Assembly (NCBI GenBank): GCA_945643635.1
Contig: CALZFC010000093.1
Coordinates: forward strand, 1,276,001-1,340,000
Direction of reading: 5' to 3'
From: Allodiplogaster sudhausi
Lineage: Eukaryota > Nematoda > Chromadorea > Rhabditida > Diplogasteridae
DNA length: 64,000 bases
Made by a program: the position numbers and the translations under genes. The notes under the pieces are model-generated. The model searched no databases, had not been told where the DNA came from, and saw only the letters and a program-made list of their open reading frames with translations. This document shows positions 6,528-64,000 of this stretch, one piece after another. Position 1 is the first letter of the stretch. Every line of letters starts with the position of its first letter.

Positions 6528-6729
6528 ATATTCCTCGAAGAAGTCAGTGTCGGAGGAGTCAACCGATATCATCAAGCCTGTTTCCGGGAAGGAGATCAAA
6601 ACCGACAATCAATATTCGGTCTCCCCCAATACTGTAAATACCTTAGCCGCATCCGTCGTTTTCAATGGTATTTTTCTTGTGTATACTGACAGGGATTCTG
6701 CAAGACATGTCGCCATATGCGAAGAATAA
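6528..6729 (+). CDS. Exon-like terminal reading frame, unknown product
   Basis: Directly after a CT tract and a TTACAG acceptor, an open frame of 66 codons runs to a TAA. It reads as serine/threonine-rich protein (segment SEESTDIIKPVSGKEIKTD) followed by a short hydrophobic stretch (LAASVVFNGIFLVY). No family is recognised and no upstream exon could be joined. It may be a true last exon of an unknown gene or chance. Confidence 0.22.
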
Positions 6730-7059
6730 TTATTAAATATTCTTGCCTCTGAAAAAGCGTCCATGATTGTTGCGACCATTAAAATGTGTTGCTGTTAGTT
6801 ACTTGTCTGTACTGCTCATATACAGCTAGGAAGTGCCCGGAACGATCCTTAAGCTGTACTTTATTTAGTTATGCTAATGGGCTGTCTGAATTATCTCAGA
6901 AAAAAGTTTCCCCACTCTGCCCATCATCAGATTCTATGTTGCTTGGCTCGCTGCAAATAAAAAATTTCCCCCCTCTGCCCATCATCAGATTCTCTGTTGC
7001 TTGGCTCGCTGCAAATAACTGCCGCGATATCCAACAAAGTTTCCGCCTGATAATTTTTG

Positions 7060-8240
7060 GTTAAAAAATGTCTCTGATTGTGATCACTGAATATCTTTGT
7101 ATTCGAATAAAAGTCAATGCGACTCTTCTTGGAGGTGTTCTTCATAGCTCTCGCACGTAAAAATGATTCAAAATGTGGAAGGAAGTCGACGATGAAAAGA
7201 AATCATACCTTCTCTTTACAAATTGATTGGAAGTGCAGACAGTAAGGAAGGAGAGTGAGAAACAGAGAGAAAAAGAAAGAGAGAGAAAGAGAAGGAGAGA
7301 AAGAGAGAAATGAGAGAGAGAATAAGAAATGTTAAAGAAACTCCAGGTGTTTTTGCTCCCATCTCCCTGTGCAACATTCACTGAGTCAGCCAGCACATTT
7401 GTCAGACTTTCTACCCCTCTCTCTCCTTCTCTCTCTCTCTCTCTCTCTGTCTCTAATTCTCTCTCTTTCTTTTTCTCTTTCTCTTTCTCTCCATTTCTCT
7501 CTATCTCTTTCTCTCTCGCTCTCTTTCCTTTCTGTTTCTATATCTCTCCTCTTGCTCACCATATCCAACTAGAGTTCCTCCCTTCGCCCATCTACTTCTG
7601 CCGCTGTTGTGCTGTTGCATAATTTTTAAGAAACTGAAAGTAGATAAAATGATATTATTTCAAGCAGAAGAGCAGAATTTTCCCCGACGAAAAAAATTTA
7701 GCCATTCAAAATTTGGAGCGGTACCAAGTGTCTCCACTGTTTTTATCACTTACACTGGTTCTTTCTCTTTGTCTCTTTCTCTCTCTCGTTCTGTATTGTT
7801 CTGTCCCACTGGCCATTTCATGGGCATAAGCGATTCGATCGAGAAGCAGTCTACCTGAAAGGGTTGAAGCGAGAGAGAGAGAGAGAGGGAGAGAGAAAGT
7901 TTCAGAAACTGTCCGCTGTTATGTGGAGCGAACAGTTCATTGCTTTTTTTTTTACATCCCTCTCTTTCTTCCAGTTTTTTTTTTTATAAAATCTGCTATT
8001 TAGTCAATTTAATTATTTATTTATTCCCTACAAATATTGTTCTTCATCATGTAAGGAAAATATTTTTATTCATACTGCACAATTCCAGGTTCTAGGCTGC
8101 TCTCGTACACAGAGCATGGCGATTCCGGCATACAACGGGAGAAAGAGGAATACATCAGTGCTGGACTTACTTATACAACACGACGTGGAGTCTCCGATCA
8201 AAGAGATCTTCTCTTGGACGCGAGGTTCATTAGACTTTAT
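7060..8240. repeat. Segmental duplication block, copy 2 (start of a third copy at 9180-9470)
   Basis: The part at 7330-8240 matches 4590-6000 around the MITE. The part at 7080-7350 (motifs TATCTTTGTATTCGAA, AGGTGTTC, AAAATGATTCA, CTTTACAAATTGATTGGAA, then a GA tract) matches 9185-9390. These are diverged direct repeats in the same orientation, consistent with an old tandem triplication. No gene was identified inside them. Confidence 0.6.
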
Positions 8241-27826: not shown

Positions 27827-28108
27827 GCTGTACAAACTCTTTAACTTAGAAAATCTTGAAAATATTTTTCTACAACACGTTTCACGTTTGCATACATCCA
27901 TTGAAGCATGCAATTATGTTAGCGAGAGGAAATATGTACATCTATAATTTGTTAAAGCATACAGAGGAGGCATGGAAACTTTTCTATGTTGTCGGTGATG
28001 TGAGTAATTTTAGTTTTTTTTTCTATATTTATAAGCCTGCATCATTTTAGCCATATAAATCTTAAATAGTACTTTGTCGTTGAGAGAAGAAGGTACTAAA
28101 TATATGTA
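27827..28108. other. Spacer between receptor copy C and the foldback element
   Basis: AT-rich 5' flank of copy C. It shares ATGCATGCTTC/ACATAATTGC-type text with 23100-23220 (upstream of copy B) in inverted orientation, so the duplicated block includes about 250 bp of flank. It ends at the TA (28107-28108) that precedes the foldback terminus. Confidence 0.5.
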
Positions 28109-28339
28109 CAGTGATGTACCGCCAAAGTGGCCGATTTGTACCGCAGCGCGCGCAATGTTCCAAATGGTACGCAAGAAAGTTCTCGGCGTACAGGCCACCA
28201 AATAAAGAGATCTATACCCTATTCGAATCCCCATTCTCTTCCACACACAGCACACAATGTCTTAAAATGTAAATTTCAACTTTATTTCATAAAATAAATC
28301 GGGCGGTAAATGCAGTAGAAAGCTCAATTTGAGTTTTCA

Positions 28340-28723
28340 CTACCACACTTTACACCGAAATACACCGAATAAACGACACTTCAGCATCATAGAATCAAGC
28401 AGCATTTTCGAAAAAGTTAGCTCTGTTTTTGATAGTTTCGTTGTTCTTCTTGGGGTTTTGTCTGAATTCTTAAGATTATTATTTGATACAACGCTAGTAA
28501 CGCTCGGAATGTTTGGAACCACCTTCGGGGAAGTGCTGAACCTGTTGATGTGATATTTTAATATCTTGTTGCCACGAACATGCTTGATTCTTCGAGTACT
28601 CGAAGAGTAGTTTATTCCCATTCTATTGAGGCTTAGAGCGGCTTGGTCATCTACGCTGCTACTCCGCTCTGTGTGGATTGGGAAGGGCAGAGGCTGACTG
28701 TCGAAACGATTCGCATTCATCAC
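28340..28723 (-). other. 127-codon frame in the left arm (same protein as 40595-40978)
   Basis: ATG-led frame beginning MMNANRFDSQPLPFP, serine/asparagine-rich, ending FRCKVW and a stop, followed outward by AATAAA within about 60 bp. The right-arm copy differs at three positions (D to V, S to G, D to G), all amino-acid changing. There is no similarity I recognise to Tc1/mariner transposases (no D-D-E/D blocks, no helix-turn-helix seen). It could be a last exon of a captured gene or simply open by chance. Confidence 0.35.
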
Positions 28724-29599
28724 GGTTAGCTGCGTTCTATTTCAGTTATTGTTGTTGTTGTTTTTTCTCTTTTGGGCTTGAAGTGATATTTATTATATCC
28801 ATGATTAATCACTAGAGCTATGCTAAGTGCTGGGGCTTATTTAAACGATGTTTTGCTCAATTCGAATTCCTTCGAGGCGGCTACCACTCTGCTCCGTTTG
28901 GCTTGGAAATTGCGGCGGCAGTCTTCAAGGACGATTCGTGCTGATCAACGTTAGCTGCTTTCTATTTAAGTTATTGTTGTTGTTTTTCTCATGTTACGCT
29001 CCAAATGATGCTACCATAGCAATGGTTCGTTAATGGAGCTATGCTAAATGCCCGGAAATATTGAAATGCAGTTTCGCTCGAAATTTATTTTACTTTTTAC
29101 CTACTGCCTCCGAAAATTAAGTCTGAATTACGAATGAAGCTTGTATTCGTGTTCTACGCTTTAAATAATTGTTAAACAATTGTGGAGCTGATGGTGAGGA
29201 TATTATGTCATGATTAAAATATGTTATCCCACTGATGAGTGACTTTTTATTTCTTGTCATCGTATTCAGAAATCCGTGCTGCTGCGTAAATGATGCGTGG
29301 ATTGGTCCGGCCTCGATGTTGCGTCGAATCAAGTGCAACCGAGCTCCGCGGCCAATCTGTTTGCCCTTGCAAACTGCTTGTCAGTCTTAACTTTTAAATT
29401 AAAATATTCCATAAATCAGACCCATCGAAAATGATGACCATTCATTATTTGCCGGACTACTGTATTCTGGAAGTGCGGTAGATTGGATTACGGTACATAT
29501 TCATGCGATAAATAACTTTGTTTACGTGTATTGCCACCTAAATAAGAAAGATAGAATAGTAACGCGGATGTAACTTATTCGCTATAAATTATCATTTTT

Positions 29600-30056
29600 A
29601 TATCACTTATTTATTTCTTGAATGGTTTCTTAGATTGATCTTTTTGAAGGAACGTCTCCACTCTTGGCGGTTGCTAGGATGTTGTAGTCGGCCCGAGCGA
29701 AGGAAGCTCGCAATCTCTGCCACGCTCGCCTCGCATGGGCTCGCCAAGTACTGTTAGTCTTTACGTTTTATTTTCTGTTAAAAGCCTTTTGCTGTATCAA
29801 CTCCCTTAGCAGCCGATATGCGATGATTTTTTTCTTTATTCAGTATAAACAGCGCACATTTTATTAGCTGACAAGAGCATACATTCAAGAATGATTACCA
29901 GTTTGTGTTACTTATTCCTTGGTTACCAGGTGGTTTCCGCTTCCGAAGACACTGACCGAAAGGCAACTGCGGCTCGACAAGGCTCCTTCCCTCCCTCTCT
30001 CTCTCTCACCCTCCTCTCTCCCTCGCCTTCTCTTCCACATCGCGAGCATGCTCACC
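29600..30056. repeat. 454-bp block present only in the left arm
   Basis: In the left arm, TTATCATTTTTATATC is followed by about 454 bp ending ...CACCTC before GAGTTTGC. In the right arm the complement of ATATC is joined directly to GAGTTTGC at about 39717-39722. The deleted or inserted piece contains one more copy of the module found elsewhere in the arms (TTTTTGAAGGAACGTC, GTAGTCGGCCC). TC is shared at both edges, as expected for a small-homology deletion from the right arm. Confidence 0.75.
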
Positions 30057-31241
30057 TCGAGTTTGCTCTCAGACTACCGTTAGTCTTTATGTTTTCTATT
30101 AGGAATGCTTTTTTCTCTGACAAAACCCTTCGGGACCTTTGTCCTTCGCGTTATTTTAACTATTTTTTTCTATATGATCATATTAGAATGCATACGAACT
30201 TGTGTTACCTTTGCGCACGGGAAAAATGCAATGACAACATTAACAGTAGTGATTTTATCAAAAGAATACCACTCAGAGACTAGTTTATTGTTCTTGTTGC
30301 ACATAAGTTATTCCTTGGTTGTCAGGCTGGTTTCGCTTGGGAAGACGCTGAACACACGTCAACGGCAGCTCGGCAACAGCCCTCCTGCCCTTCCTCTCCC
30401 CATCTCCCACCCTAGTTCTCCTCTCTCTCTCTCGGTCTCTCTCTCTCACTCTTTCTCGCTCTCTCTCCCTCTCTCGCTCTCGCTCTCTCTCTCTCTCTCT
30501 ATCTCGCTGTCCATTGATTGTAGGATGAAAACTGTGGTCTATCTTGTTTCCGTATTTTCTTTGTGTTTCGTGAATTAATGAATTTATAAAGCTTCATGAT
30601 TAATGGATAGACACGCGGTGTTGAACAGACTGAAAAGGAAAGAAGTAAAGGAAAAGGCATGATTGGGAGACAAATCGTGATAGGGAGACAAAGCAAAACA
30701 GAGAGGGAGCAACCAGGGAGCTGCTGAACATGAAGCTTGAAGACTGGGATGAGGAGATGAGGAGCACTGGTAAGAATTGAAAGAGGGGGAGCGGAGGAAG
30801 CAGGCGAATTGGGCCCGACATGATTATGTCATTGAAGACATTCCAATTTGATATTTTGTGAAATCTTTCACGCAAAAGTGGCGGCCCCGAACTCTCGCGC
30901 TCCGCGCACCACAGTGAGGCTCTTACCTACACACTACACGGTCACTTGCATATTACTGGCCGAACACTTACTCAGAGAAACTGTATGCCCAGTTTTATAG
31001 GAAACACCCTCAGAGCCAGCTAGCGTTCTCCACAACGGAACGTGATTTCCACCGTGATTATCAACACGCGTTAATGGAAAGATTACCTCTTACTTGAAAC
31101 TCATTGTCCAGTGCTCTTTCTTCCCTCTCCCTCTCTCTCTCTCTTTCTCTCTCTCTAGATCTCTCTCTCTCCATCTCTCTCTGTCTGCTTCTCTCTCTCT
31201 CTCTCTCTCTGCCTCTCTCCCTCGCTGTCTGTCTCTCTCTC

Positions 31242-31286
<45 letters not shown>

Positions 31287-31687
31287 AGTCTCGCTGTCCA
31301 TGGATTGTAAGATGAGAAATGTCCTCTCACTTGTTTCCGTGTTTTCTTTGTGTTTTGTTGATGAAACTTATCGTTAGACAAGCGTTGTTGAACAGACTGA
31401 AAAGGAAAGTAAGGAAAAATAAGAAAGCTATAGAGATAAAGTATGAAAGAGAGAGAAAGCAAGACAGGCAACAGCTACTGAACATGTAGTTGGAAGACTG
31501 GGAAGAGGAGAGGAGCAGAAGTTGATTGACCATGAGAAGAGAAGCGGATCAGTGGAAACAAGCAGAAATTAACGGGCACGATATAATTTTGTTGTCCAAA
31601 GGCATTCCAAGCTGAAATTTTGTGAAATCTTTCACGCAAAAGCATCCTTCAAGAGTCGGCCTCGAACCCTCGATCCTTACGCACCAC

Positions 31688-31702
31688 GGGGGGGGGGGGG
31701 GG
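31688..31702. repeat. G15 tract in the left arm (C16 partner at 38061-38076)
   Basis: A G run follows a tRNA-like block (GTTCGAGGCC on the complementary strand). The right arm has the mirror-image run of 16 C. The one-base length difference between arms is typical of homopolymer drift. Confidence 0.85.
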
Positions 31703-31901
31703 CTAACCTACACACCACACTGTCACATGCAGCTTACATGTTGAACACTTACTCAGAGAAACTGCTTGCTCAGTGTATAGGAAACACCCTCAGCCAGCTA
31801 GCGTTTTTTCACCACAATAGAGAGTGATTTTAACCGTGATTATCTACACGCGCTAATGGAACTATTTCTCTTACTTGAACACATTGTCCAGTGATCTTTC
31901 T

Positions 31902-31950
<49 letters not shown>

Positions 31951-34255
31951 CTTTCTCCCTCTCTCTCTCTCACTGCAAGTCTTCCCTTTAAGCTGCCTCG
32001 CCACCCTCTCGTATATCATTCTGCAATCTTTCAGTCATCGACTTCTCAGCTCACAATCAGTTCTTGACAGGACAGGCCTTTTCTCATCCAGCACTGAAAA
32101 AGTAAAGTGGGCGGATATATTGCTCACAGATAGCCTTCTGAACCCTTGACGTTGTCCTGTGAAGGACGTTGTTGGTTAATTATTTTTCAACGATTTTGAT
32201 TTTTGAATGCTGTAAAAGCTCTTCATTATCTCTGCTTCTCTACCATACACTTTACACAACTGCACATTAGATAAACTAGCAGTAAGGAAAGAGGGAATGA
32301 GGTAGAAATAAGATAAAGGGAAAGGGTAGATAGGGAGAGAGAAAGAGAACGAGAGAGATACCAGGCACCAGCGAGCATGCAGCAGAAGAAGAGAGAGAGA
32401 GAGAAAGAACGAGAGAGAGAGAGAAAGAACGAGAGAGAGAGTGAGAGAGAGAGCGAGAGCGAGAGAGAGAGAGAGAGAGAGAGAGATTAAAACAGTGAGA
32501 GAAAGAGAGCACTGGACAGTGATTTCAAGTTAGGAGATACCTTACCATTAGTAAGCATGAGTGTGCGGTGTGCGGACGAGCGCCTTTCTGCTGATGGAGT
32601 CAGCTTGAGTTTGAGTTCACTCGCGTCTGTTGCTTCTGCATGAAGTTCTCACGGAATTTCATCCATAGTAGGATAGAGAGAGAGTGAGAGAGGGAGAGAG
32701 AGAGAGAGAGATACAGAAAGAGAGAGAGAGAGAGAGATAGCGAGAGAGAAAGAGAGAGAGAAAGAGATCTAGGAGGATAGAGAGAGATGGGGAGAGGAAG
32801 GGAAGGATGATTATTGCCGAGCTGCGTGTGCCCTCCGGTCAGCGACTTCGGAAGCGAGCCAGCCTGACATTCAAGGAATAAGTTATGTGCACTCCCAATC
32901 AAGTATTTCAGAATTAACCTAATAGCAAGAGTAGAAACTCTAGCCAAACTAGGAGCATTTTGTAATTTGGATTGAAATCCTCATAATAAAGACATATTTT
33001 TTACTTATTGGGCAAACAAATCTTAATAGGCAACTTATTAGACAAAAAAAATTGGCTCGAATTTCGACCAAACAAAAGTTAGGCTAATTCTGAAAAAAAA
33101 AAGCAACCATAAGAATGTTTTAGACGCATTTCCGTAAAAGTAGCACAAAATCGAATGCACTAGAGTATACTCTAGGAAGGTTATTTATACAAAATGTGAA
33201 GACTAACGGAAGTTTGCGAGGAGGTCAGATGTTCAGATTCCTTGGCTGGGGCAGACAACGACCTCCTTGGCAAGACTGAAGGCGACCCTTCAAAAAATCA
33301 ATCAGGGAACTCACTTAAGAAAAATTATTGTAATTGAAATGAAAGATTCATAGCGAATAAGTGATAATCGATCTAGTATTCTGCTTTTCTTATTTAGCTT
33401 CAAATAAAAGTAAATGAACTTAAGTTACGTTTTAACTACAGTAATCAAGCACACAGTACAGTAAAAACTCAAAAGTGAATGTATAATATCTTCAATGAGT
33501 ATACTTTAAGGATCAGTTTAATGTAATACCAAAGGACTAACAAGTAATTTGCCAGCCATTTGAAGAGTGCAGAGGAGGAAAGAGTGGCAGGCAGATTGGG
33601 AGAGAGAGAGAGAGATGGGCAGAGGTAGGGATGGAGCACTCTTGTCAAGCTGCAGTTGCCGAGTCATCAGCGTCCTCCGAAGCGGAACCAGCCTGACAGC
33701 GAAGAAATAAGTTATGGGCAACCATAAAAATAATCTAGTATTCAGTCTAGATGGCATTCTATTGACAAAATACCAAAATATGAACATTTTCATGTTTCAT
33801 TTTCCCTGTGCATAGCTCATATAAGATATTGAAGAAAAAATACACTAAAAATAGGCAAAGGCGTTTTCAAGAGTTTTGCTAGATGAAAAGGTTTAATAGC
33901 AATTCTAGATGTAAGTTATGCCAACAAGCAGATATGATTTGTGAAAATTACCCATAATTTATAAACCATGTGCTGTGATTAAAAAAAAAAGAAATGTCAG
34001 AACTAACAGTAATTTGTGTGCACTCGAGGCGAGTCTGGCAGTGATCTTCACATTTCTGGCTGGGCCGACTACGACCTCCTTGCAACCGGCAAAGTGGATG
34101 CGATCCTTCAAAAAGAAGAATCTAAGAAAAAATTTGTTATTAAAATAATATATTCATAATAAATAAGCTGCAATCACTGCAATAATCCGCAACTACAAAA
34201 TAGACAGACAAGTGGGGTTAAAAATACTGAAAAGAAAGAGGGGAAAGTGAGAGAG

Positions 34256-34384
34256 AGAGAGAGCGAGAGAGAGAGGGAGAGAGAAGGAGAGAGAGAGAGA
34301 GAGAGAGAGAGAGCAAGATAGAGAGGGTAGAGAAAGAGTGACATAAAAGCCAGCGAGTATTTAGCAGAAACAAGAAAGAGACAC

Positions 34385-34437
<53 letters not shown>

Positions 34438-35461
34438 ATAGAGAGAGCGCTGGGCAATGAATTTTAATTTTAGCCGATTGTTGCATCCCGTGAGGGCTGC
34501 TTTTGTGTGAATTCTTTCAAGGTATTCCAACCGTGAGGAAAAAAGGTGGAGGAAGAGATAAGAAGAGAGAGCAACGAGTTCAAGGAGTTCTATGATTTGC
34601 GAAGATTACCATAATCTGCAGTCCACGTGATGTCACTTAAAAAAGAAATGTCGGGACTAACGGTAGTTTGCGTGCCCAATCAAGGCGAGTCTGGCCACGA
34701 TGTTCAAATCCTTGCAACCGGCAAACTGGAGGAGATCCTTCAAAAAGAGCAATCTAAGAAATAATTCTAGAAATTAATAAATGATATTCAAATGACACAT
34801 TCAAAACGAATAAGTTGCAATCGCGTTTGCATTGTACCTTTCTTATTTAGCTGGAAATAAACGCAAACAAACTTATATTCACCTTGAATATCTACCGTAA
34901 TCCAATATACCAAACTATCCAGCCTACAGTAATCCGACAAGAAAATGAATTCTCAGCACTTTTGATGAGTTAGATTTATTGAATATTTTTATTTAAAAAG
35001 CGAGGACTAACATGCAGTTTGTCGGGGCAAACAGTTCGGCCAACAGTGTGTTCGGGTCCACTGTTCTCGCCGGCATTCGAGGCCGGGCCTAGCCATCCAT
35101 CATTTTCGCAGCAGCTGAACACGGCAACAAGGAATTCAAAATCATTCATGAGTTGGCTAACACCTCTCAACCATGATGCAATATCCTCTTCTCCACATCG
35201 TAACGGCTAAACCAGTGCTGAACAAGGTCTGGTTCCAGCCCGGGGGGGGGAGGCACAAAATTAAAAATGTCTCATTCGATTAAACAAACACACACATAAA
35301 TGGAGAAGTGTCTAAGGGAAAAAAAGGGGGTCAAACGATTCTGAGCAGGCTGGGGCGGTGGGGCACGGCGCAGCACAGACTTTGTTCAGCACTGGGCGAA
35401 AGAAATCTATTCAAACAGCAATACACTTTTGAAAGAAAGCACAAAAGGCATTTACTTCTTC
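34256..35461. repeat. Unpaired centre of the foldback element, with a diverged copy of the outer right arm
   Basis: The centre does not pair with itself. Its part 34790-35200 runs parallel to 39720-40160 of the right arm (GAATAAGTTGCAATC / GAATAAGTTACATCC, ACCGTAATCCAAT, CAGTTTGTCGGGGCAAACAG / CAGTTTGCAAGGGCAAACAG) at perhaps 75% identity. A module at 34560-34760 resembles 33950-34120. The centre is therefore older and more diverged than the arms. It also contains a G10 run near 35240. Confidence 0.65.
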
Positions 35462-37212
35462 TCTCTCCCTCTCTCTCTCGCTCTCTCTCTCTCACTTTCC
35501 CCTCTTTCTTTTAAGTATTTTTAACCCCACTTGTCTGTCTATTTTGTAGTTGCGGATTATTGCAGTGATTGCAGCTTATTTATTATGAATATATTATTTT
35601 AATAACAAATTGTTTCTTAGATTCTTCTTTTTGAAGGATCGCGTCCACTTTGCCGGTTGCAAGGAGGTCGTAGTCGGCCCAGCCAGAAATGTGAAGATCA
35701 CTGCCAGACTCGCCTCGAGTGCACACAAATTACTGTTAGTTCTGACATTTCTTTTTTTTTTATCACAGCACATGGTTTATAAATTATGGGTAATTTTCAC
35801 AAATCATATCTGCTTGTTGGCATAACTTACATCTAGAATTGCTATTAAACCTTTTCATCTAGCAAAACTCTTGAAAATGCCTTTGCCTATTTTTAGTGTA
35901 TTTTTTCTTCAATATTTTATATGAGCTATGCACAGGGAAAATGAAACATGAAAACGCTCATATTTTGGTATTTTGTCAATAGAATGCCATCTAGACTGAA
36001 TACTAGATTATTTTTATGGTTGCCCATAACTTATTTCTTCGCTGTCAGGCTGGTTCCGCTTCGGAGGACGCTGATGACTCGGCAACTGCAGCTTGACAAG
36101 AGTGCTCCATTCCTACCTCTGTCCATCTCTCTCTCTCTCCCAATCTGCCTGCCACTCTTTCCTCCTCTGCACTCTTCAAATGGCTGGCAAATTACTTGTT
36201 AGTCCTTTGGTATTACATTAAACTGATCCTTAAAGTATACTCATTGAAGATATTATACATTCACTTTTGAGTTTTTACTGTACTGTGTGCTTGATTACTG
36301 TAGTTAAAACGTAACTTAAGTTCATTTACTTTTATTTGAAGCTAAATAAGAAAAGCAGAATACTAGTTCGATTATCACTTATTCGCTATGAATCTTTCAT
36401 TTCAATTACAATAATTTTTCTTAAGTGAGTTCCCTGATTGATTTTTTGAAGGGTCGCCTTCAGTCTTGCCAAGGAGGTCGTTGTCTGCCCCAGCCAAGGA
36501 ATCTGAACATCTGACCGCCTCGCAAACTTCCGTTAGTCTTCACATTTTGTATAAATAACCTTCCTAGAGTATACTCTAGTGCATTCGATTTTGTGCTACT
36601 TTTACGGAAATGCGTCTAAAACATTCTTATGGTTGCTCTGGTTTTCAGAATTAGCCTAACTTTTGTTTGGTCGAAATTCCAGCCAATTTTTTTTGTCTAA
36701 TAAGTTGCCTATTAAGATTATGAGGATTTCAATACAAATTACAAAATGCTAATAGTTTAGCAAGAGTTTCTACTCTTGCTATTAGGTTAATTCTGAAATA
36801 CTTGATTGGGAGTGCACATAACTTATTCCTTGAATGTCAGGCTGGCTCGCTTCCGAAGTCGCTGACCGGACGGCACACGCAGCTGGGCAATAATCATCCT
36901 TCCCTTCCTCTCCCCATCTCTCTCTCTCTCTAGATCTCTTTCTCCCTCTCTCTTTCTCTCTCGCTATCTCTCTCTCTCTCTCTTTCTGTATCTCTCTCTC
37001 TCTCTCTCCCTCTCTCACTCTCTCTCTATCCTACTATGGATGAAATTCCGTGAGAACTTCATGCAGAAGCAACAGACGCGAGAGAACTCAAACTCAAGCT
37101 GACTCCATCAGCAGAAAGGCGCTCGTCCGCACACCGCACACTCATGCTTACTAATGGTAAGGTATCTCCTAACTTGAACTCACTGTCCAGTGCTCTCTTT
37201 CTCTCACTGTTT

Positions 37213-37248
<36 letters not shown>

Positions 37249-37305
37249 CTCGCTCTCTCTCTCACTCTCTCTCTCTCTCTTCTTCTGCTGCATGCTCTCT
37301 CTCTT

Positions 37306-37346
<41 letters not shown>

Positions 37347-37818
37347 CTTTCTCTCTCTCTCTCGTTCTTTCTCTCTCTCTCTCTTCTTCTGCTGCATGCT
37401 CGCTGGTGCCTGGTACCTCTCTCGTTCTCTTTCTCTCTCCCTATCTACCCTTTCCCTTTATCTTATTTCTACCTCATTCCCTCTTTCCTTACTGCTAGTT
37501 TATCTAATGTGCAGTTATGTAAAGTGTATGGTAGAGAAGCAGAGATAATGAAGAGCTTTTACAGCATTCAAAAATCAAAATCGTTGAAAAATAATTAACC
37601 AACAACGTCCTTCACAGGACAACGTCAAGGGTTCAGAAGGCTATCTGTGAGCAATATATCCGCCCACTTTACTTTTTCAGTGCTGGATGAGAAAAGGCCT
37701 GTCCTGTCAAGAACTGATTGTGAGCTGAGAAGTCGATGACTGAAAGATTGCAGAATGATATACGAGAGGGCGGCGAGGCAGCTTAAAGGGAAGACTTGCA
37801 ATGAGAGAGAGAGAGAGG

Positions 37819-37861
<43 letters not shown>

Positions 37862-38478
37862 AGAAAGATCACTGGACAATGTGTTCAAGTAAGAGAAATA
37901 GTTCCATTAGCGCGTGTAGATAATCACGGTGGAAATCACTCTCTATTGTGGTGAAAAAACGCTAGCTGGCTGAGGGTGTTTCCTATACACTGAGCAAGCA
38001 GTTTCTCTGAGTAAGTGTTCAACATGTAAGCTGCATGTGACAGTGTGGTATGTAGGTTAGCCCCCCCCCCCCCCCCTGTGGTGCGTAAGGATCGAGGGTT
38101 CGAGGCCGACTCTTGAAGGATGCTTTTGCGTGAAAGATTTCACAAAATTTCAGCTTGGAATGCCTTTGGACAACAAAATTATATCGTGCCCGTTAATTTC
38201 TGCTTGTTTCCACTGATCCGCTTCTCTTCTCATGGTCAATCAACTTCTGCTCCTCTCCTCTTCCCAGTCTTCCAACTACATGTTCAGTAGCTGTTGCCTG
38301 TCTTGCTTTCTCTCTCTTTCATACTTTATCTCTATAGCTTTCTTATTTTTCCTTACTTTCCTTTTCAGTCTGTTCAACAACGCTTGTCTAACGATAAGTT
38401 TCATCAACAAAACACAAAGAAAACACGGAAACAAGTGAGACCACATTTCTCATCTTACAATCCATGGACAGCGAGACT

Positions 38479-38531
<53 letters not shown>

Positions 38532-41209
38532 GAGAGAGAGACAGACAGCGAGTGAGAGAGGCAGAGAGAGAGAGAGAGAAGCAGACAGAGAGAGATGGAG
38601 AGAGAGAGATGGAGAGAGAGAGAGAGAAAGAGAGAGAGAGGGAGAGGGAAGAAAGAGCACTGGACAATGAGTTTCAAGTAAGAGGTAATCTTTCCATTAA
38701 CGCGTGTAGATAATCACGGTGGAAATCACGTTCCGTTGTGGAGAACGCTAGCTGGCTCTGAGGGTGTTTCCTATAAAACTGGGCATACAGTTTCTCTGAG
38801 TAAGTGTTCGGCCAGTAATGCAAGTGAACGTGTAGTGTGTAGGTAAGAGCCTCACTGTGGTGCGCGGATCGCGAGAGTTCGGGGCCGCCACTTTTCCGTG
38901 AAAGATTTCACAAAATATCAAATTGGAATGTCTTCAATGACATAATCATGTCGGGCCCAATTCGCCTGCTTCCTCCGCTCCCCCTCCTTCAATTCTTACC
39001 AGTGCTCCTCATCTCCTCATCCCAGTCTTCAAGCTTCATGTTCAGCAGCTCCCTGGTCTCTCCCTCTCTGTTTTGCTTTGTCTCCCTATCACGATTTGTC
39101 TCCAAATCATGCCTTTTCCTTTACTTCTTTCCTTTTCAGTCTGTTCAACACCGCGTGTCTATCCATTAATCATGAAGCTTTATAAATTCATTAATTCACG
39201 AAACACAAAGAAAATACGGAAACAAGATAGACCACAGTTTTCATCCTACAATCAATGGACAGCGAGATAGAGAGAGAGAGAGAGAGAGCGAGAGAGGGAG
39301 AGAGAGCGAGAAAGAGTGAGAGAGAGAGACCGAGAGAGAGAGAGGAGAACTAGGGTGGGAGATGGGGAGAGGAAGGGCAGGAGGGCTGTTGCCGAGCTGC
39401 CGTTGACGTGTGTTCAGCGTCTTCCCAAGCGAAACCAGCCTGACAACCAAGGAATAACTTATGTGCAACAAGAACAATAAACTAATATCAGTCTCTGAGT
39501 GGTATTCTTTTGACAAAATCACTAATGTTAATGTTGTCATTGCATTTTTCCCGTGCGCAAAGGTAACACAAGTTCGTATGCATTCTAATATGATCTTATA
39601 GAAAAAAAAAGTTAAAATAACGCGAAGGACAAAGGTCCCGAAGGGTTTTGTCAGAGAAAAAAGCATTCCTAATAGAAAACATAAAGACTAACGGTAGTCT
39701 GCGAGCAAACTCGATATAAAAATGATAATTTATAGCGAATAAGTTACATCCGCGTTAGTATTCTATCTTTCTTATTTAGGTTGCAATACACGTAAACAAA
39801 GTTATTTATCGCATGAATATGTACCGTAATCCAATCTACCGCACTTCCAGAATACAGTAGTCCGGCAAATAATGAATGGTCATCATTTTCGATGGGTCTG
39901 ATTTATGGAATATTTTAATTTAAAAGTTAAGACTGACAAGCAGTTTGCAAGGGCAAACAGATTGGCCGCGGAGCTCGGTTGCACTTGATTCGACGCAACA
40001 TCGAGGCCGGACCAATCCACGCATCATTTACGCAGCAGCACGGATTTCTGAATACGATGACAAGAAATAAAAAGTCACTCATCAGTGGGATAACATATTT
40101 TAATCATGACATAATATCCTCACCATCAGCTCCACAATTGTTTAACAATTATTTAAAGCGTAGAACACGAATACAAGCTTCATTCGTAATTCAGACTTAA
40201 TTTTCGGAGGCAGTAGGTAAAAAGTAAAATAAATTTCGAGCGAAACTGCATTTCAATATTCCCGGGCATTTAGCATTGCTCCATTAACGAACCATTGCTA
40301 TGGTAGCATCATTTGGAGCGTAACATGAGAAAAACAACAACAATAACTTAAATAGAAAGCAGCTAACGTTTATCAGCACGAATCGTCCTTGAAGACTGCC
40401 GCCGCCCTTTCCAAGCCAAACGGAGTAGAGTGGTAGCCGCCTCGAAGGAATTCGAATTGAGCAAAACATCGTTTAAATAAGCCCCAGCACATAGCATAGC
40501 TCTAGTGATTAATCATGGATATAATAAATATCACTTCAAGCCCAAAAGAGAAAAAAACAACAACAACAATAACTGAAATAGAACGCAGCTAACCGTGATG
40601 AATGCGAATCGTTTCGACAGTCAGCCTCTGCCCTTCCCAATCCACACAGAGCGGAGTAGCAGCGTAGTTGACCAAGCCGCTCTAAGCCTCAATAGAATGG
40701 GAATAAACTACTCTTCGAGTACTCGAAGAATCAAGCATGTTCGTGGCAACAAGATATTAAAATATCACATCAACAGGTTCAGCACTTCCCCGAAGGTGGT
40801 TCCAAACATTCCGGGCGTTACTAGCGTTGTATCAAATAATAATCTTAAGAATTCAGACAAAACCCCAAGAAGAACAACGAAACTATCAAAAACAGAGCTA
40901 ACTTTTTCGAAAATGCTGCTTGGTTCTATGATGCTGAAGTGTCGTTTATTCGGTGTATTTCGGTGTAAAGTGTGGTAGTGAAAACTCAAATTGAGCTTTC
41001 TACTGCATTTACCGCCCGATTTATTTTATGAAATAAAGTTGAAATTTACATTTTAAGACATTGTGTGCTGTGTGTGGAAGAGAATGGGGATTCGAATAGG
41101 GTATAGATCTCTTTATTTGGTGGCCTGTACGCCGAGAACTTTCTTGCGTACCATTTGGAACACTGCGCGCGCTGCGGTACAAATCGGCCTCTTTGGCGGT
41201 ACATCACTG
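35462..41209 (-). repeat. Right arm of the foldback element
   Basis: Inverted copy of 28109-34255, with the same order of modules, the C16 tract, tRNA-like segments at about 38040-38120 and 38825-38890, and the outward frames 39979-40200 and 40595-40978. AATAAA occurs at 41032-41037 reading outward. It lacks the 454-bp block. CT/GA tract lengths differ from the left arm. Confidence 0.8.
40595..40978 (+). other. 127-codon frame in the right arm
   Basis: Mirror copy of 28723-28340, reading outward toward the element end, with two adjacent ATGs at the start. The upstream 200 bp (40300-40460) is a diverged tandem copy of the region just before and within this frame (ACAACAACAATAACTTAAATAG / ACAACAATAACTGAAATAG), and that copy is not open. 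This makes a conserved protein less likely. Confidence 0.35.
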
Positions 41210-42286
41210 TACATGCATACATACATACAATAGTTAATTTTCTACACGTGAGATTTAAAATGAATACAATTCTGAAATGATTGCATAAAATCGTTCAAAC
41301 TTTCTGGATCTACGTTTTACAACGAGACGAAATGATCCAGGCTTAGTTAGAAAAACGACATGTTAATTATCCGCCGGAGACCTCCTTTAAAGATCACGGT
41401 GGAAAGCAGGCAGAGGTGGCGGGAACATGGGAATGAATTGAATTGCTGGTACTTTCTATTATCTGCTTGTTGAAGTGAGCATGTTTTTTTTCTACATAGA
41501 TATATTCAATAGCCTACTTCTTTCTGTAAATCATCGAACTATGAGAGTCGTCTGGCAAGCGCAAATAAACTAATAGAAATTAAATAAACGCTATTAGTAA
41601 TCTTGCTAGTTGCCCGACTGGCCAGGGTTTATTTATCGATTTATCGCCATCAAATAGTTGATGCATTCATAAATATTCAATATTTATGAATGCATTAAAT
41701 ATTCTTCAACTCATTGATGTTTTCAATGTTGTTGGCCCGTTTACAGCATAATATTCACTTGAACAGTCAAAAATTTTGTTTTGAGACTGATGGTAAAGGA
41801 GGTGAAGAGAAGAGACAGAAATCCCTTCTTTTCACCCCTCCTTTTTAATAATTGCCATCTTCCGGCAACGGATTTCCATTTGGGAATGGCATCATGACGT
41901 CTTGATGAATGGTGTAGTGGTTACGATCCAGGCGACGGTCCTAAGTGCGCGAGTTCGAGTCTAGCAGCTGCATGAAAGTAGCTCATCCTTGCTCTGCGAG
42001 CGGTGGCTGTCGTGGGAGCGGAGTACGCTCTGCTCCCGCGACGTTGTCCTGCCACGATGAACAGTGCTGGCCTCTGTGGCATTCTCTTTTCTCTTGCTTC
42101 TTCCCTGTTGTCTCGCTGGTCGCAAGAATATGATTACAAGGAAATAAAAATTTGCGGCTCTCCGATCCATGGAAGATTCTGTGATGGCACGTAAAGGCCT
42201 TTGAGGTGTCTGATGACAGTCAGCCTTCAAACGCGACAGGGCAACAGCACACCAAAGGGGACGAGAGACAAACCGAGGCCTTGCAA
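41210..42286. other. Spacer with small palindrome and tRNA-like element
   Basis: A short perfect palindrome lies at 41660-41696 (AATGCATTCATAAATATT and its complement). At about 41907-41972 the plus strand has TGGTGTAGTGGTTACGA and, 27 bases on, GAGTTCGAGTCTAGCA. These are spaced like tRNA A and B boxes but lack a pairing acceptor stem. The following GC-rich 41995-42060 can fold (GGGAGCGGAGTACGCTCTGCTCCC). This is best read as a tRNA-derived SINE remnant. No protein gene is seen. Confidence 0.5.
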
Positions 42287-60561: not shown

Positions 60562-63500
60562 ATGTTCCTGTACCTTTTCTACCTCTTCTACTCCTCCTTC
60601 CTTCCCCTCATCTCCAACATCATTCTTCTCTGCATTTTCCTCGGTGCTACGGGCGCCTCCCTCGGCATTCGCGATTTCTTCGTTGCTTGCCTCATCAGGG
60701 TCTTCGAGGTGGGATTTTTTTTATTGAGATATCGTTTATTTATTTATTTATGTTTTTTTTTTAAATATATTTTTTTAAATTTTATTTTTAAAATTAATTT
60801 TTAAAAACATTTTCTTTAGTGTTAGAACTATGTTTTATAAAAAAAAAATATTTTTTTTCCTGATGAAATTAATGGAAACGTTTGAATTCGATTTTTATTT
60901 ATAACAGAAAATAATGTATATTTTCACAGTGGGGCTCCACTCTCGACCTGCCTCCAAGGGAAGACGAACAAGAGGAAGAAGAAGAAGGAGAGGTGGTGGA
61001 AGAGGAGGATGAGAAGCATCCCGAAGACCCGGCGAGTATCGGATGCGGTGGATGTGTCCATGACATCAGCAGTCCCGGAGGAACGGCAGAAGAAACGAGG
61101 CCACGACTAAGGAAATGCCCGTCATCATCGAACAACTTGCGTAAGTTATCGATTAACCTTAATTTGCATTAAACAAAACTCAGATTTGAATTCCAGCCTT
61201 TTTGCCGTAACACAAGGGACGATATAGCATGTGATTTATGGAGGATGGACTGGAATGGTCTTAAAAATAGAATTTTTTTTATAGATATGTTTAGTGTCCC
61301 TTTAACAAATTTTTAGATAAATATATTACAAGCACTGTTCTCGACCTACAATAAATTACAATTATGAAATTAATTTTTTTAACACACTTATAATCCTTGG
61401 ATAAGTAAGAGCAAGTTATAATTTTTTTATTAAAATAAAAAAATCTAAAAGTATAAAAATAAATAAAAATTATTTTTGTATTAGGAATCATCGAACGCGA
61501 GCACTCCGAGTTGATTGAGACAAAGCTGGCGGGTCAGGACCGAAGAGCGTACCCGGGCAGCATCTCTCTCCTCGTTGATGACACACTCGACTTTATCGCG
61601 GTAGGGCAAAAGGGATCTCAGGGTGACCACCCCCTGGGTTTAGAGTGGGTTGTCAACCCCCCCCCCCTAGGTTTGGAGTTTGTATTCGACACCCCACTGG
61701 GTTTGGAGTGGGTAGTCGACCCCCCACTGGGTTTAGAGTGGGTAGTCGACCACGGTTTGAATTGGTAGTCGACCCCCCACTGGATTTAGCGTGGGTAGTC
61801 GACCCCCCACTGGGTTTAGAGTGGGTAGTCGACCCCCCACTGGGTTTAGAGTGGGTAGTCGACCACTCCCTGGGTTTAGAATGGGTAGTCGACCACGGTT
61901 TGAATTGGTAGTCGACCCCCCACTGGATTTAGCATGGGTAGTCGACCCCCCACTGGGTTTAGAGAGGGTAGTCGACCACCCCCTGGGTTTAGAATGGGTA
62001 GTCGACCACCCCGTGGGGTTAGAATTGGTAGTCGACCCCCCACTGGGTTTAGAGTGGGTAGTCGACCACCCCCTGGGTTTAGAAAGGGTAGTCGACCACC
62101 CCGTGGGGTTTGAATTGGTAGTCGACCCCCCACTGGGTTTAGAGTGGGTAGTCGACCCCCCACTGGGTTTAGAGTGGGTAGTCGACCACCCCCTGGGTTT
62201 AGAAAGGGTAGTCGACCACCCCGTGGGGTTTGAATTGGTAGTCGACCCCCCACTGGGTTTAGAGTGGGTAGTCGACCCCCCACTGGGTTTAGAGTGGGTA
62301 GTCGACCACCCCCTGGGTTTAGAAAGGGTAGTCGACCACCCCGTGGGGTTTGAATTGGTAGTCGACCCCCACTGGGTTTAGAGTGGGTAGTCGACCCTCC
62401 ACTGGGTTTAGAGTGGGTAGTCGACCACACCCTGGGTTTAGAAAGGGTAGTCGCCCACCCCGTGGGGCTTGAATTGGTAGTCGACCCCCCACTGGGTTTA
62501 GAGTGGGTAGTCGACCCCCCACTGGGTTTAGAGTGGGTAGTCGACCACCCCCTGGGTTTAGAAAGGGTAGTCGACCACCCCGTGGGGTTTGAATTGGTAG
62601 GCGACCCCCCACTGGGTTTAGAGTGGGTAGTCGACCACCCCCTGGGTTTAGAAAGGGTAGTCGACCACCCCGTGGGGTTTGAATTGGTAGTCGACCCCCC
62701 ACTGGGTTTAGAGTGGGTAGTCGACCCCCCACTGGGATTAGAGTGGGTAGTCGACCACCCCCTGGGTTTAGAAAGGGTAGTCGACCACCCCGTGGGGTTT
62801 GAATTGGTAGTCGACCCCCCACTGGGTTTAGAGTGGGTAGTCGACCCCCCACTGGGTTTAGAGTGGGTAGTCGACCACCCCCTGGGTTTAGAAAGGGTAG
62901 TCGACCACCCCGTGGGGTTTGAATTGGTAGTCGACCCCCACTGGGTTTAGAGTGGGTAGTCGACCCCCCACTGGGTTTAGAGTGGGTAGTCGACCACCCC
63001 CTGGGTTTAGAAAGATTAGTCGACCACCCAGTGGGGTTTGAATTGGTAGTCGACCCCCCACTGGGTTTAGAGTGGGTAGTCGACCACCCCCTGGGTTTAG
63101 AATGGGTAGTCGCCCACCCCGTGGGGCTTGAATTGGTAGTCGAGCCCCCACTGGATTTAGAGTGGGTAGTCGACCCCCCACTGGGTTTAGAGTGAGTAGT
63201 CGACCACCCCCTGGGTTTAGAAAGGGTAGTCGACCACCCCGTGGGGTTTGAATTGGTAGTCGACCCCCCACTGGGTTTAGAGTGGGTAGTCGACCCCCCA
63301 CTGGGTTTAGAGTGGGTAGTCGACCACCCCCTGGGTTTAGAAAGGGTAGTCGACCACCCCGTGGGGTTTGAATTGGTAGGCGACCCCCCACTGGGTTTAG
63401 AGTGGGTAGTCGACCCCCCACTGGGTTTAGAGTGGGTAGTCGACCCCCACTGGGTTTAGAGTGGGTAGTCGACCCCCCACTGGGTTTAGAGTGGGTAGGC

Positions 63501-64000
63501 GACCACCCCCTGGGTTTGGGTGGGTGCACCCGGCAATACCACGTTATCATTCTTGAAATGGAAACAACTTTCTTGACATGCCAGCTCAATGGCAATTTCT
63601 TTTGGAAGCACTCATAGGACTCAGCCGTAATATGCATCGTTTTATGTTTATAGTTTTTTTTTCCTTTTCCTTCTCGTTGGGTTGCTTGTTCTTTGAAGTG
63701 ATTTGTGGGTTGTTAGCCCAAAGTACGATCAATTTTTTTTACGTTGCTGTGAAGTATTAAATAAAAGGTACAATTCTTGGCGCATAATTGATTCGAAATT
63801 TGGAACATATATTATTTTTCGTAGAGGTAATAAAATTATTAATACTATTTTATATTGATAAAAAAAAAATTATATGTAAAATTAGAAAATATATAAATTA
63901 AAATAAATTGAGATTATAGATTAATTATTCCCAGGCCGGCATCGAATCTATCATCGAAGACCAAGTGACGTCACGCTTCTCGGCAGAGCAACTTCCGTCG
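60562..64000 (+). CDS. acl-4/acl-5: GPAT3/GPAT4-type glycerol-3-phosphate acyltransferase, N-terminal part (runs off window)
   Basis: ER enzyme that acylates sn-glycerol-3-phosphate to lysophosphatidate, the first step of glycerolipid synthesis. Exons in window: 60562-60708, 60930-61140, 61485-61600, 63935-64000 onward; phases agree. The N-terminus has a long hydrophobic segment (residues about 5-30) then GASLGIRDFFVACLIRVFEW, matching SFGIRKLYMKTLLKIFAW of the human GPAT4 (AGPAT6) group. An acidic Glu-rich stretch unlike the vertebrate protein follows. Then DDTLDFIA joins AGIESIIEDQVTSRFSAEQL across intron 3, matching the FYFCRKGMETIMDDEVTKRFSAEEL region. The acyltransferase HX4D motif would lie beyond base 64000. 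Intron 3 (61601-63934) contains the 30-bp satellite. The start ATG lies directly after a TTTTCAG acceptor, consistent with spliced-leader addition. The acl-4 and acl-5 paralogues cannot be told apart from this part. Confidence 0.85.
61622..63520. repeat. 30-bp minisatellite with 90/120-bp higher-order organisation, about 63 units, intronic
   Basis: Units share the core GGGTAGTCGACC and differ in a diagnostic segment: TTTAGAGTGG, TTTAGAAAGG or TTTGAATTGG, and in CCCCCC, CACCCC or CCGTGG at the joint. From about 62040 to 63380 they follow a regular order of three or four unit types, giving 90-bp and 120-bp super-units that are almost identical to each other. The edges (61622-61900 and 63400-63520) are less ordered. 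Each unit carries GTCGAC. Because 30 is a multiple of three, long reading frames run through both strands; they are not genes. Confidence 0.95.

Follow-up and report, generated by a model that had tools for sequence, protein, structure and literature searches.

A 13.1-kb mirror-image member of a TA-inserting transposon family in the nematode Allodiplogaster sudhausi

We analyzed a 64,000-nucleotide stretch of the Allodiplogaster sudhausi genome (contig CALZFC010000093.1 of GenBank assembly GCA_945643635.1, positions 1,276,001 to 1,340,000 of the forward strand; hereafter, the window), in which positions 28109 to 41209 form an inverted-repeat element of 13,101 bp. We conclude that this feature was inserted at a TA site and is a mirror-image member of a transposon family found throughout the genome. 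It probably arose (with a probability of about 0.7 for the account as a whole) when the half of an ordinary element that carries one of two end types, R, was copied twice in inverted orientation and the other end, L, was replaced; a Tc1-type transposase acting in trans is predicted to mobilize it. Loci are named by contig (C-numbers, C93 being the window's own), and positions within the C93 element are given as el coordinates.

RESULTS

Architecture of the element

As the initial annotation had described, CAGTGATGTACCGCC is found at both termini, 28109 and 41209, pointing inward with a TA just outside each. The features of the element are as follows.

28107..28108, no strand: left TA of the target-site duplication; the target is TGTACA, with a single TA at the C30 empty site
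28109..34290, + strand: left arm, 6,182 bp; an R-type end, then most of an ordinary element
28109..28643, + strand: terminal segment, el 1-535, common to the R and L ends of ordinary members; approximately el 1-535 matches at both ends of other copies
29605..30056, + strand: 452 bp in the left arm only, with no right-arm counterpart; likely a later deletion there
34291..35454, no strand: unpaired center, 1,164 bp, from the arm alignment
34709..35454, + strand: segment el 6601-7346; in ordinary members (C42, C345, C295) the L end lies ~190 bp further on
35450..35460, no strand: fusion junction, where CATTTACTTC is joined to TTCTCTCTCCC, the CT tract of the arm
35455..41209, - strand: right arm, 5,755 bp, the left arm in inverted copy, also with an R-type end
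41210..41211, no strand: right TA of the target-site duplication, from the flank sequence and the empty-site comparison

The arms pair in two blocks, 28104-29604 with 39713-41214 (99.0% over 1,502 columns) and ~30057-34286 with 35458-39714 (95.1% over 4,324 columns, gaps counted). A global alignment that sets aside the 452 bp contains 5,664 aligned bases, of which 88 (1.55%) are mismatched, and 157 gap columns; divergence is 0.4 to 1.8% in 10 of the 12 bins of 500 bp and above 4% in the remaining 2. The paired arms amount to 88% of the element, which thus has the very long inverted repeats of a foldback-type structure. Arms of about 6 kb had been described as pairing over their whole length; their size is confirmed, whereas the pairing is incomplete, as the left arm holds 452 bp without a partner. 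Because el 762-2359 is one contiguous match in C49, this difference suggests a later deletion from the right arm. The unpaired center, earlier put at about 1.2 kb, is present and can now be placed exactly. The motif GTACCGC occurs in the terminal segment at 28116 and 28138, and these copies are possible transposase sites.

Insertion at a TA site

When the flanks of the element are joined (150 bp each, with one TA), they match C30:2487561-2487866 end to end at 96%. The C30 locus reads ATATATG-TA-CATGCAT, with a single TA and without the element. Because this paralogous locus has the same flanks, one TA, and no element, the C93 feature is an insertion with TA duplication and not an assembly fold. 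The initial annotation had proposed the duplication and named empty TA sites as a means of checking it, and the match at C30 bears the proposal out. The same locus explains the bases ATGTA and TACAT outside CAGT, which are the target TGTACA itself, since C30 reads through with a single TA. The 8- to 10-bp target duplication of Tm1 and the Mutator-type foldbacks is not seen; the empty site shows TA only.

The C93 flanks and C30:2487200-2488250 belong to a paralogous host segment that is present on two contigs and is 91 to 96% alike over ~1 kb. The C30 stretch matches the left flank at 96.5% over 517 columns (12 mismatches) and the right flank at 90.8% over 566 columns (22 mismatches). The host paralogues therefore differ more than the arms of the element do, which is a weak indication that the mirror form arose after the host segment was duplicated.

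A genome-wide family with two end types

The 21-base terminus, including TA, occurs 222 times at up to two mismatches in the 351.8-Mb genome (103 forward, 119 reverse), versus 0 occurrences for the reversed-pattern control. The absence of other genomic copies, which the initial annotation had named as evidence against the element, is thereby removed from consideration. Exact ...CCAAAG termini number 87, and 62 of these make up 31 inward-facing pairs; among the 33 neighboring exact-terminus pairs no more than 25 kb apart, 31 face inward, 0 face outward, and 2 point in the same direction. The inward pairs span 3,476 to 23,759 bp (median, 7.6 kb; 24 of 31 at 6.4 to 10.3 kb). At 23.8 kb, C82 is the longest; it aligns collinearly with C19 (10.3 kb), the extra length being due to added segments, among them a long interspersed nuclear element (LINE). 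Copies were sought with a terminus pattern that included TA, with 4 mismatches allowed, and TA adjoins all termini examined in the copies read, except for one C10 end, which has TT. A further 62 of the 222 termini are exactly ...CCAAAA; one of them belongs to a small element of ~400 bp at L036:1003-1406 (C5), one end of which reads CAGTGATGTACCGCCAAAA. These small elements are possibly miniature relatives of the giants.

Ordinary members have ~535 bp common to both termini, beyond which the R and L sides are separate. The end types were scored by comparison with one R end, taken from C264, and one L end, taken from C42; in these two cases the reference end is compared with itself. Twelve of 21 complete copies are R-L (C264, C82, C42, C49, C295, C59, C6, C1, C345, C283, C51b, and C19). 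C93 has an R score at both ends and no L end, and C7 and C26 have an L score at both ends; C10, C259, and C113 were unscorable at both ends and C322 and C243 at one. In a tree of the termini, built without C10, C113, and C259, the two C93 ends are sisters, as are the two C43 ends, and the four ends of C7 and C26 form one group, while seven R-L copies (C51b, C1, C49, C42, C264, C59, and C345) have their ends in opposite halves.

The share of each element that is paired at 90% identity or more, counted from nested inverted matches 60 bp or longer, is 88% in C93, 72% in each of C7 and C26, and 47% in C43. It is 34 to 45% in C295, C6, C283, and C59, 3% in C113, and 0% in C264, C82, C42, C49, C1, C345, C322, C243, and C19; C10 (57%) and C259 (18%) are both short, and the 22% of C51b comes mostly from a nested element. 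The internal inverted arms of other members are 84% alike in C345 and C113, ~92% in C295, C6, and C283, and 94% in C59. The element nested in the C51 family member (L029:8249 to L030:6094) is 7.6 kb long, has the ends TACAGTCCCGCTCAAC, 2-kb inverted repeats that are 98.9% alike, and a Tc1-like open reading frame (ORF) at L030:1250-1687; it represents a second large CAGT-ended family.

The R-R fusion at C93

In ordinary copies, CATTTACTTC is followed by AATTCCC or AACTCCC; C42 has el 6601-7350, then ~190 bp, then the L terminus, and the order in C345 is identical. C93 keeps the ordinary order up to CATTTACTTC and then continues with TTCTCTCTCCC, in the opposite direction, out to the second R terminus, which places the fusion point to within a few bases. 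A query across this junction was fully covered by C93 only (40 scored of 225 candidates), and the other scored loci stop within ~14 bases of the junction or start at it. Likewise, two full R arms occur in C93 only (40 scored of 79 candidates), and C51, C246, C90, C105, C49, and C1 have one R arm each, at 90 to 93% over a 501-bp piece of the C93 R arm. The full-length R-R foldback is, as far as scored, a single-copy derivative. Foldbacks recur in the family in at least two independent forms, and because the R-R form is single copy as scored and 12 of 21 copies are R-L, the C93 foldback does not yet amount to a separate class.

An L-L counterpart at two loci

C7 and C26 carry a common L-L foldback of 6.58 to 6.60 kb with 2.38-kb arms, 99.4% identical between the loci over 6,613 columns. 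Its 26-base junction occurs exactly twice in the genome at up to 3 mismatches, once at each locus (control, 0). At C7 (C7:1763649-1772428; L034, L045, and L046), host DNA is mirrored for ~519 bp on either side of the foldback: the inverted repeat reaches past the element by 519 bp on one side and 516 bp on the other, at 98.5%, before the symmetry stops. At C26 the repeat passes the element by ~35 to 43 bp only, into TA-rich sequence, and the flanks are not mirrored. Mirrored flanks are expected where inverted copying happened, and the same foldback at another TA site without them is expected after transposition; C7 is thus the likely place of the inverted copying and C26 its likely transposed daughter. 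Taken together, the two loci make it likely that inverted copying generates the foldbacks of this family, which then transpose in that form.

Candidate transposases

The element had been described as nonautonomous, which fits the absence of any Pfam match at E 0.01 in the 10 ORFs searched of the 40 listed for C93. A Tc1-like relic, an exon of 185 amino acids (aa), lies inside C82 and C19; the two exons are 98% identical, with one stop in C19, and the two elements are collinear at 95 to 98% over the compared length. The relic ends right after a first catalytic-like Asp (FTDE), and the open stretch that follows resembles, in a three-frame reading, only the C-terminal part of a relative found at C1. 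Apart from C82 and C19, the best matches to the relic in the genome are 47 to 49% identical, with none higher. A limited test for bracketing repeats around the C19 relic (20-base arms, at least 16 matches) found none; a small Tc1 element nested around the relic was accordingly rejected, no TA-bracketed inverted repeat of 16/20 bases being present in the stretches tested. The earlier assignment to a Tc1/mariner type is supported by the TA, the CAGT ends, and the truncated transposase relic rather than by an intact enzyme. We predict that a Tc1-type enzyme encoded elsewhere in the genome mobilizes the element in trans.

DUF1280 was considered as the family transposase, as matches lie in C113 and C268, and was rejected: only 2 of 112 genome matches fall inside 32 element spans (31 from the exact pairs and one from C268, for which the position of the second end was estimated), so they are likely passengers. 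The C113 and C268 proteins are distant from each other (21% identical over 143 aa, E 1e-6). DUF1280 (PF06918) reading frames at 112 places, the longest of 1,081 aa and many above 600 aa without stops, are scattered through the genome in the manner of a mobile-element protein. The second transposase group, comprising the 47 to 49% matches at C1:7798563 and others, is possible as the mover but is not supported. Its downstream homology at C1 stops at ~L038:5629, and in the parts searched there was one weak inverted match (16/20 bases, not CAGT) and no GTACCGC. Nearby, L038:6298-6673 is a 376-bp repeat that recurs mostly at 96 to 99%, often in inverted pairs spanning ~1.5 kb, and is another inverted-repeat element family.

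Other repeats

Window positions 61625-63525 hold a tandem array of ~64 copies of a 30-bp unit, with further periods of 90 and 120 bp. Elsewhere, tandem arrays carry the exact 22-base nematode SL1 leader GGTTTAATTACCCAAGTTTGAG every ~452 bp and align to the whole of Rfam SL1, scoring 36 to 44 bits (gathering score, 75), in keeping with a nematode host. The SL1 gene clusters at C1:10181736-10196947 and C7:10304-26621 both flip orientation midway and have similar spacing, and they are possibly one region assembled twice.

DISCUSSION

Origin of the mirror form

The assembly directly shows the insertion at TA and the matching empty site, the family and its two end types, the two R ends of C93, and the fusion point, and from these we infer the copying steps. 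An ordinary R-L element would have been excised or broken, and its broken end, in which ~535 bp are common to the R and L termini, would have been repaired off the R terminus instead of the L terminus. Synthesis would then have run ~6 kb inward, and within the arm's CT tract the new strand would have been joined at el 7346 to what remained of the element. With both of its termini intact, the resulting foldback would remain mobile. The L-L foldback at C7 and C26 supports both proposed steps, copying and transposition.

An R-R structure might instead descend from two sister ordinary copies in opposite orientation, nested or adjacent, from which a deletion took both L ends. Nested insertions are known in the family, C82 holding several, and C49 has two termini 36 bp apart. 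However, the sisters would have to be very recent, as the arms are 1.55% apart and six other R-arm copies stand at only 90 to 93%; moreover, the empty site gives one TA for the entire unit, and sister copies do not predict the mirrored flanks at C7. We therefore consider this origin unlikely. The inverted repeats might also have lengthened gradually through a long series of small conversions, a route that has been proposed for certain Foldback-type elements. The internal inverted arms of other members, of varied age (84 to 94%), would accord with such a process, but the broadly even divergence along the C93 arms (10 of 12 bins in the narrow range) and the one sharp breakpoint point to a single event, and gradual growth seems quite improbable. 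That the palindrome is an assembly or read artefact has next to no probability: long palindromes are classical artefacts and some contigs are of round-number size, but the C93 flanks are unmirrored and join cleanly at the empty site, the unpaired 1.16-kb center has, in its right part, family sequence arranged as in other members, the arms are separated by 88 substitutions and an indel of 452 bp, and a separate foldback exists at two loci.

The enzyme raises a different alternative, namely, that the family is moved by a transposase from a different TA-inserting group, with the Tc1-like exon of C19 and C82 being a passenger. The relic's missing catalytic middle and its score below the Pfam cutoff would be explained in this way, as would the restriction of copies more than 49% identical to C82 and C19. 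Against it, the relic is internal to both collinear elements, the limited test gave no bracketing repeats, and TA with CAGT ends is the Tc1 pattern; the alternative candidate, DUF1280, is in only 2 of the 32 spans compared (of 112 matches), and these two proteins are mutually only 21% identical. We give this explanation a small chance of being right.

Several observations weigh against inverted copying from the R end, followed by transposition with a Tc1-type enzyme, and they account for the reserve with which we put it forward. No signs of inverted copying were seen in the flanks of C93 itself, and its fusion is present at one locus only (40 of 225 candidates scored), so the C93 copy is only putatively mobile as a foldback. 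The flank mirror at C7 could be a preexisting palindrome with TA at its center, hit by the insertion. The counts of end types are biased and are not frequencies, as copies were chosen by likeness to the C93 R terminus; C43 is R-like at both ends, yet both match R-derived and L-side queries, so that its type is uncertain; and 5 of the 12 R-L copies (C19, C82, C295, C6, and C283) have both ends in one large half of the tree, on separate sub-branches. As for the enzyme, the relic matches HTH_Tnp_Tc3_2 (PF01498) at E 1.3e-5 and 25.8 bits, below the Pfam cutoff of 31.5; its catalytic middle appears to be gone, and it could be a nested insertion with one end lost. A protein search with the relic found no relative at E 0.001 among 57 candidates, a PDB sequence search gave nothing below E 0.19, and neither an intact transposase of the relic's lineage nor any enzyme with known activity on these ends turned up.

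Comparison with known elements

CAGT-type ends are the Tc1/mariner pattern, and C93 shares two further traits of that superfamily, a TA target-site duplication and terminal inverted repeats (TIRs). Members are usually 1.3 to 2.4 kb long with one transposase gene, as given in PMC6875036. This usual size, which is not strictly defining, is exceeded by the pairs of the family (3.5 to 23.8 kb) and by the 13.1 kb of C93, which has no recognized gene. The Tc series of Caenorhabditis elegans includes the palindromic element Tc6; Tc4 and Tc6 are ~1.6 kb long with arms of less than 0.8 kb, and the Tc4 target is TNA. Tc4 is a fold-back element according to a title cited in PMC6829131. Compared by description and not by sequence, these and C93 are all nematode foldback or palindromic elements, C93 being far larger.

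Galileo, a Drosophila element of the P superfamily, has a target duplication longer than TA and a P-type transposase, in contrast to the Tc1-like relic of the C93 family. It exists as ordinary and foldback-like copies, the longest inverted repeats having arisen partly via recruited inner sequence, and repair of one end on the other has been proposed, giving TIR1-F1-F1-TIR2 (PMC3573991). This mechanism for longer repeats is the same in kind as the one that we propose for C93. The Galileo TIRs reach ~1.26 kb (PMC3573991), versus ~6-kb arms in C93. Tm1 of Meloidogyne (Mutator/Foldback) is likewise a nematode family with composite inverted repeats of variable length, but its target duplications are mostly 9 bp long, versus TA for C93, and its transposase is of the Mutator type (PMC3169594); Tetris is a foldback with 8- to 10-bp duplications (PMC4079207). 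A literature search found no foldback of this size with TA duplication among the matches listed (titles and abstract openings), which is not proof of absence.

Implications

This genome contains a natural series in which the origin of foldback transposons can be traced at the level of single bases: ordinary R-L elements, C7 as the likely birthplace with its mirrored flanks, C26 as the likely daughter, and the giant R-R element with its empty site. Beyond a Galileo-type mechanism, the genome contributes the large size, the TA target, and the pairing of birthplace with daughter, and foldback size is extended to 13 kb in a TA-inserting family. We raise only tentatively, as doubtful at present, the broader idea that a TA-inserting Tc1-type lineage repeatedly converts itself to whole-element palindromes (R-R or L-L, up to 13 kb, and mobile again) as a normal life stage, via end-on-end repair after excision.

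The palindromes may also matter to the host. Mu killer of maize is likewise an inverted duplication derived from a transposon, and PMC3440606 describes it as silencing MuDR, with a hairpin RNA as the proposed means. If the palindromes described here are transcribed, their long hairpin RNAs would feed host RNA interference against the family. This leads to a testable hypothesis, in which a nematode genome itself supplies the long hairpins that act as triggers against a transposon.

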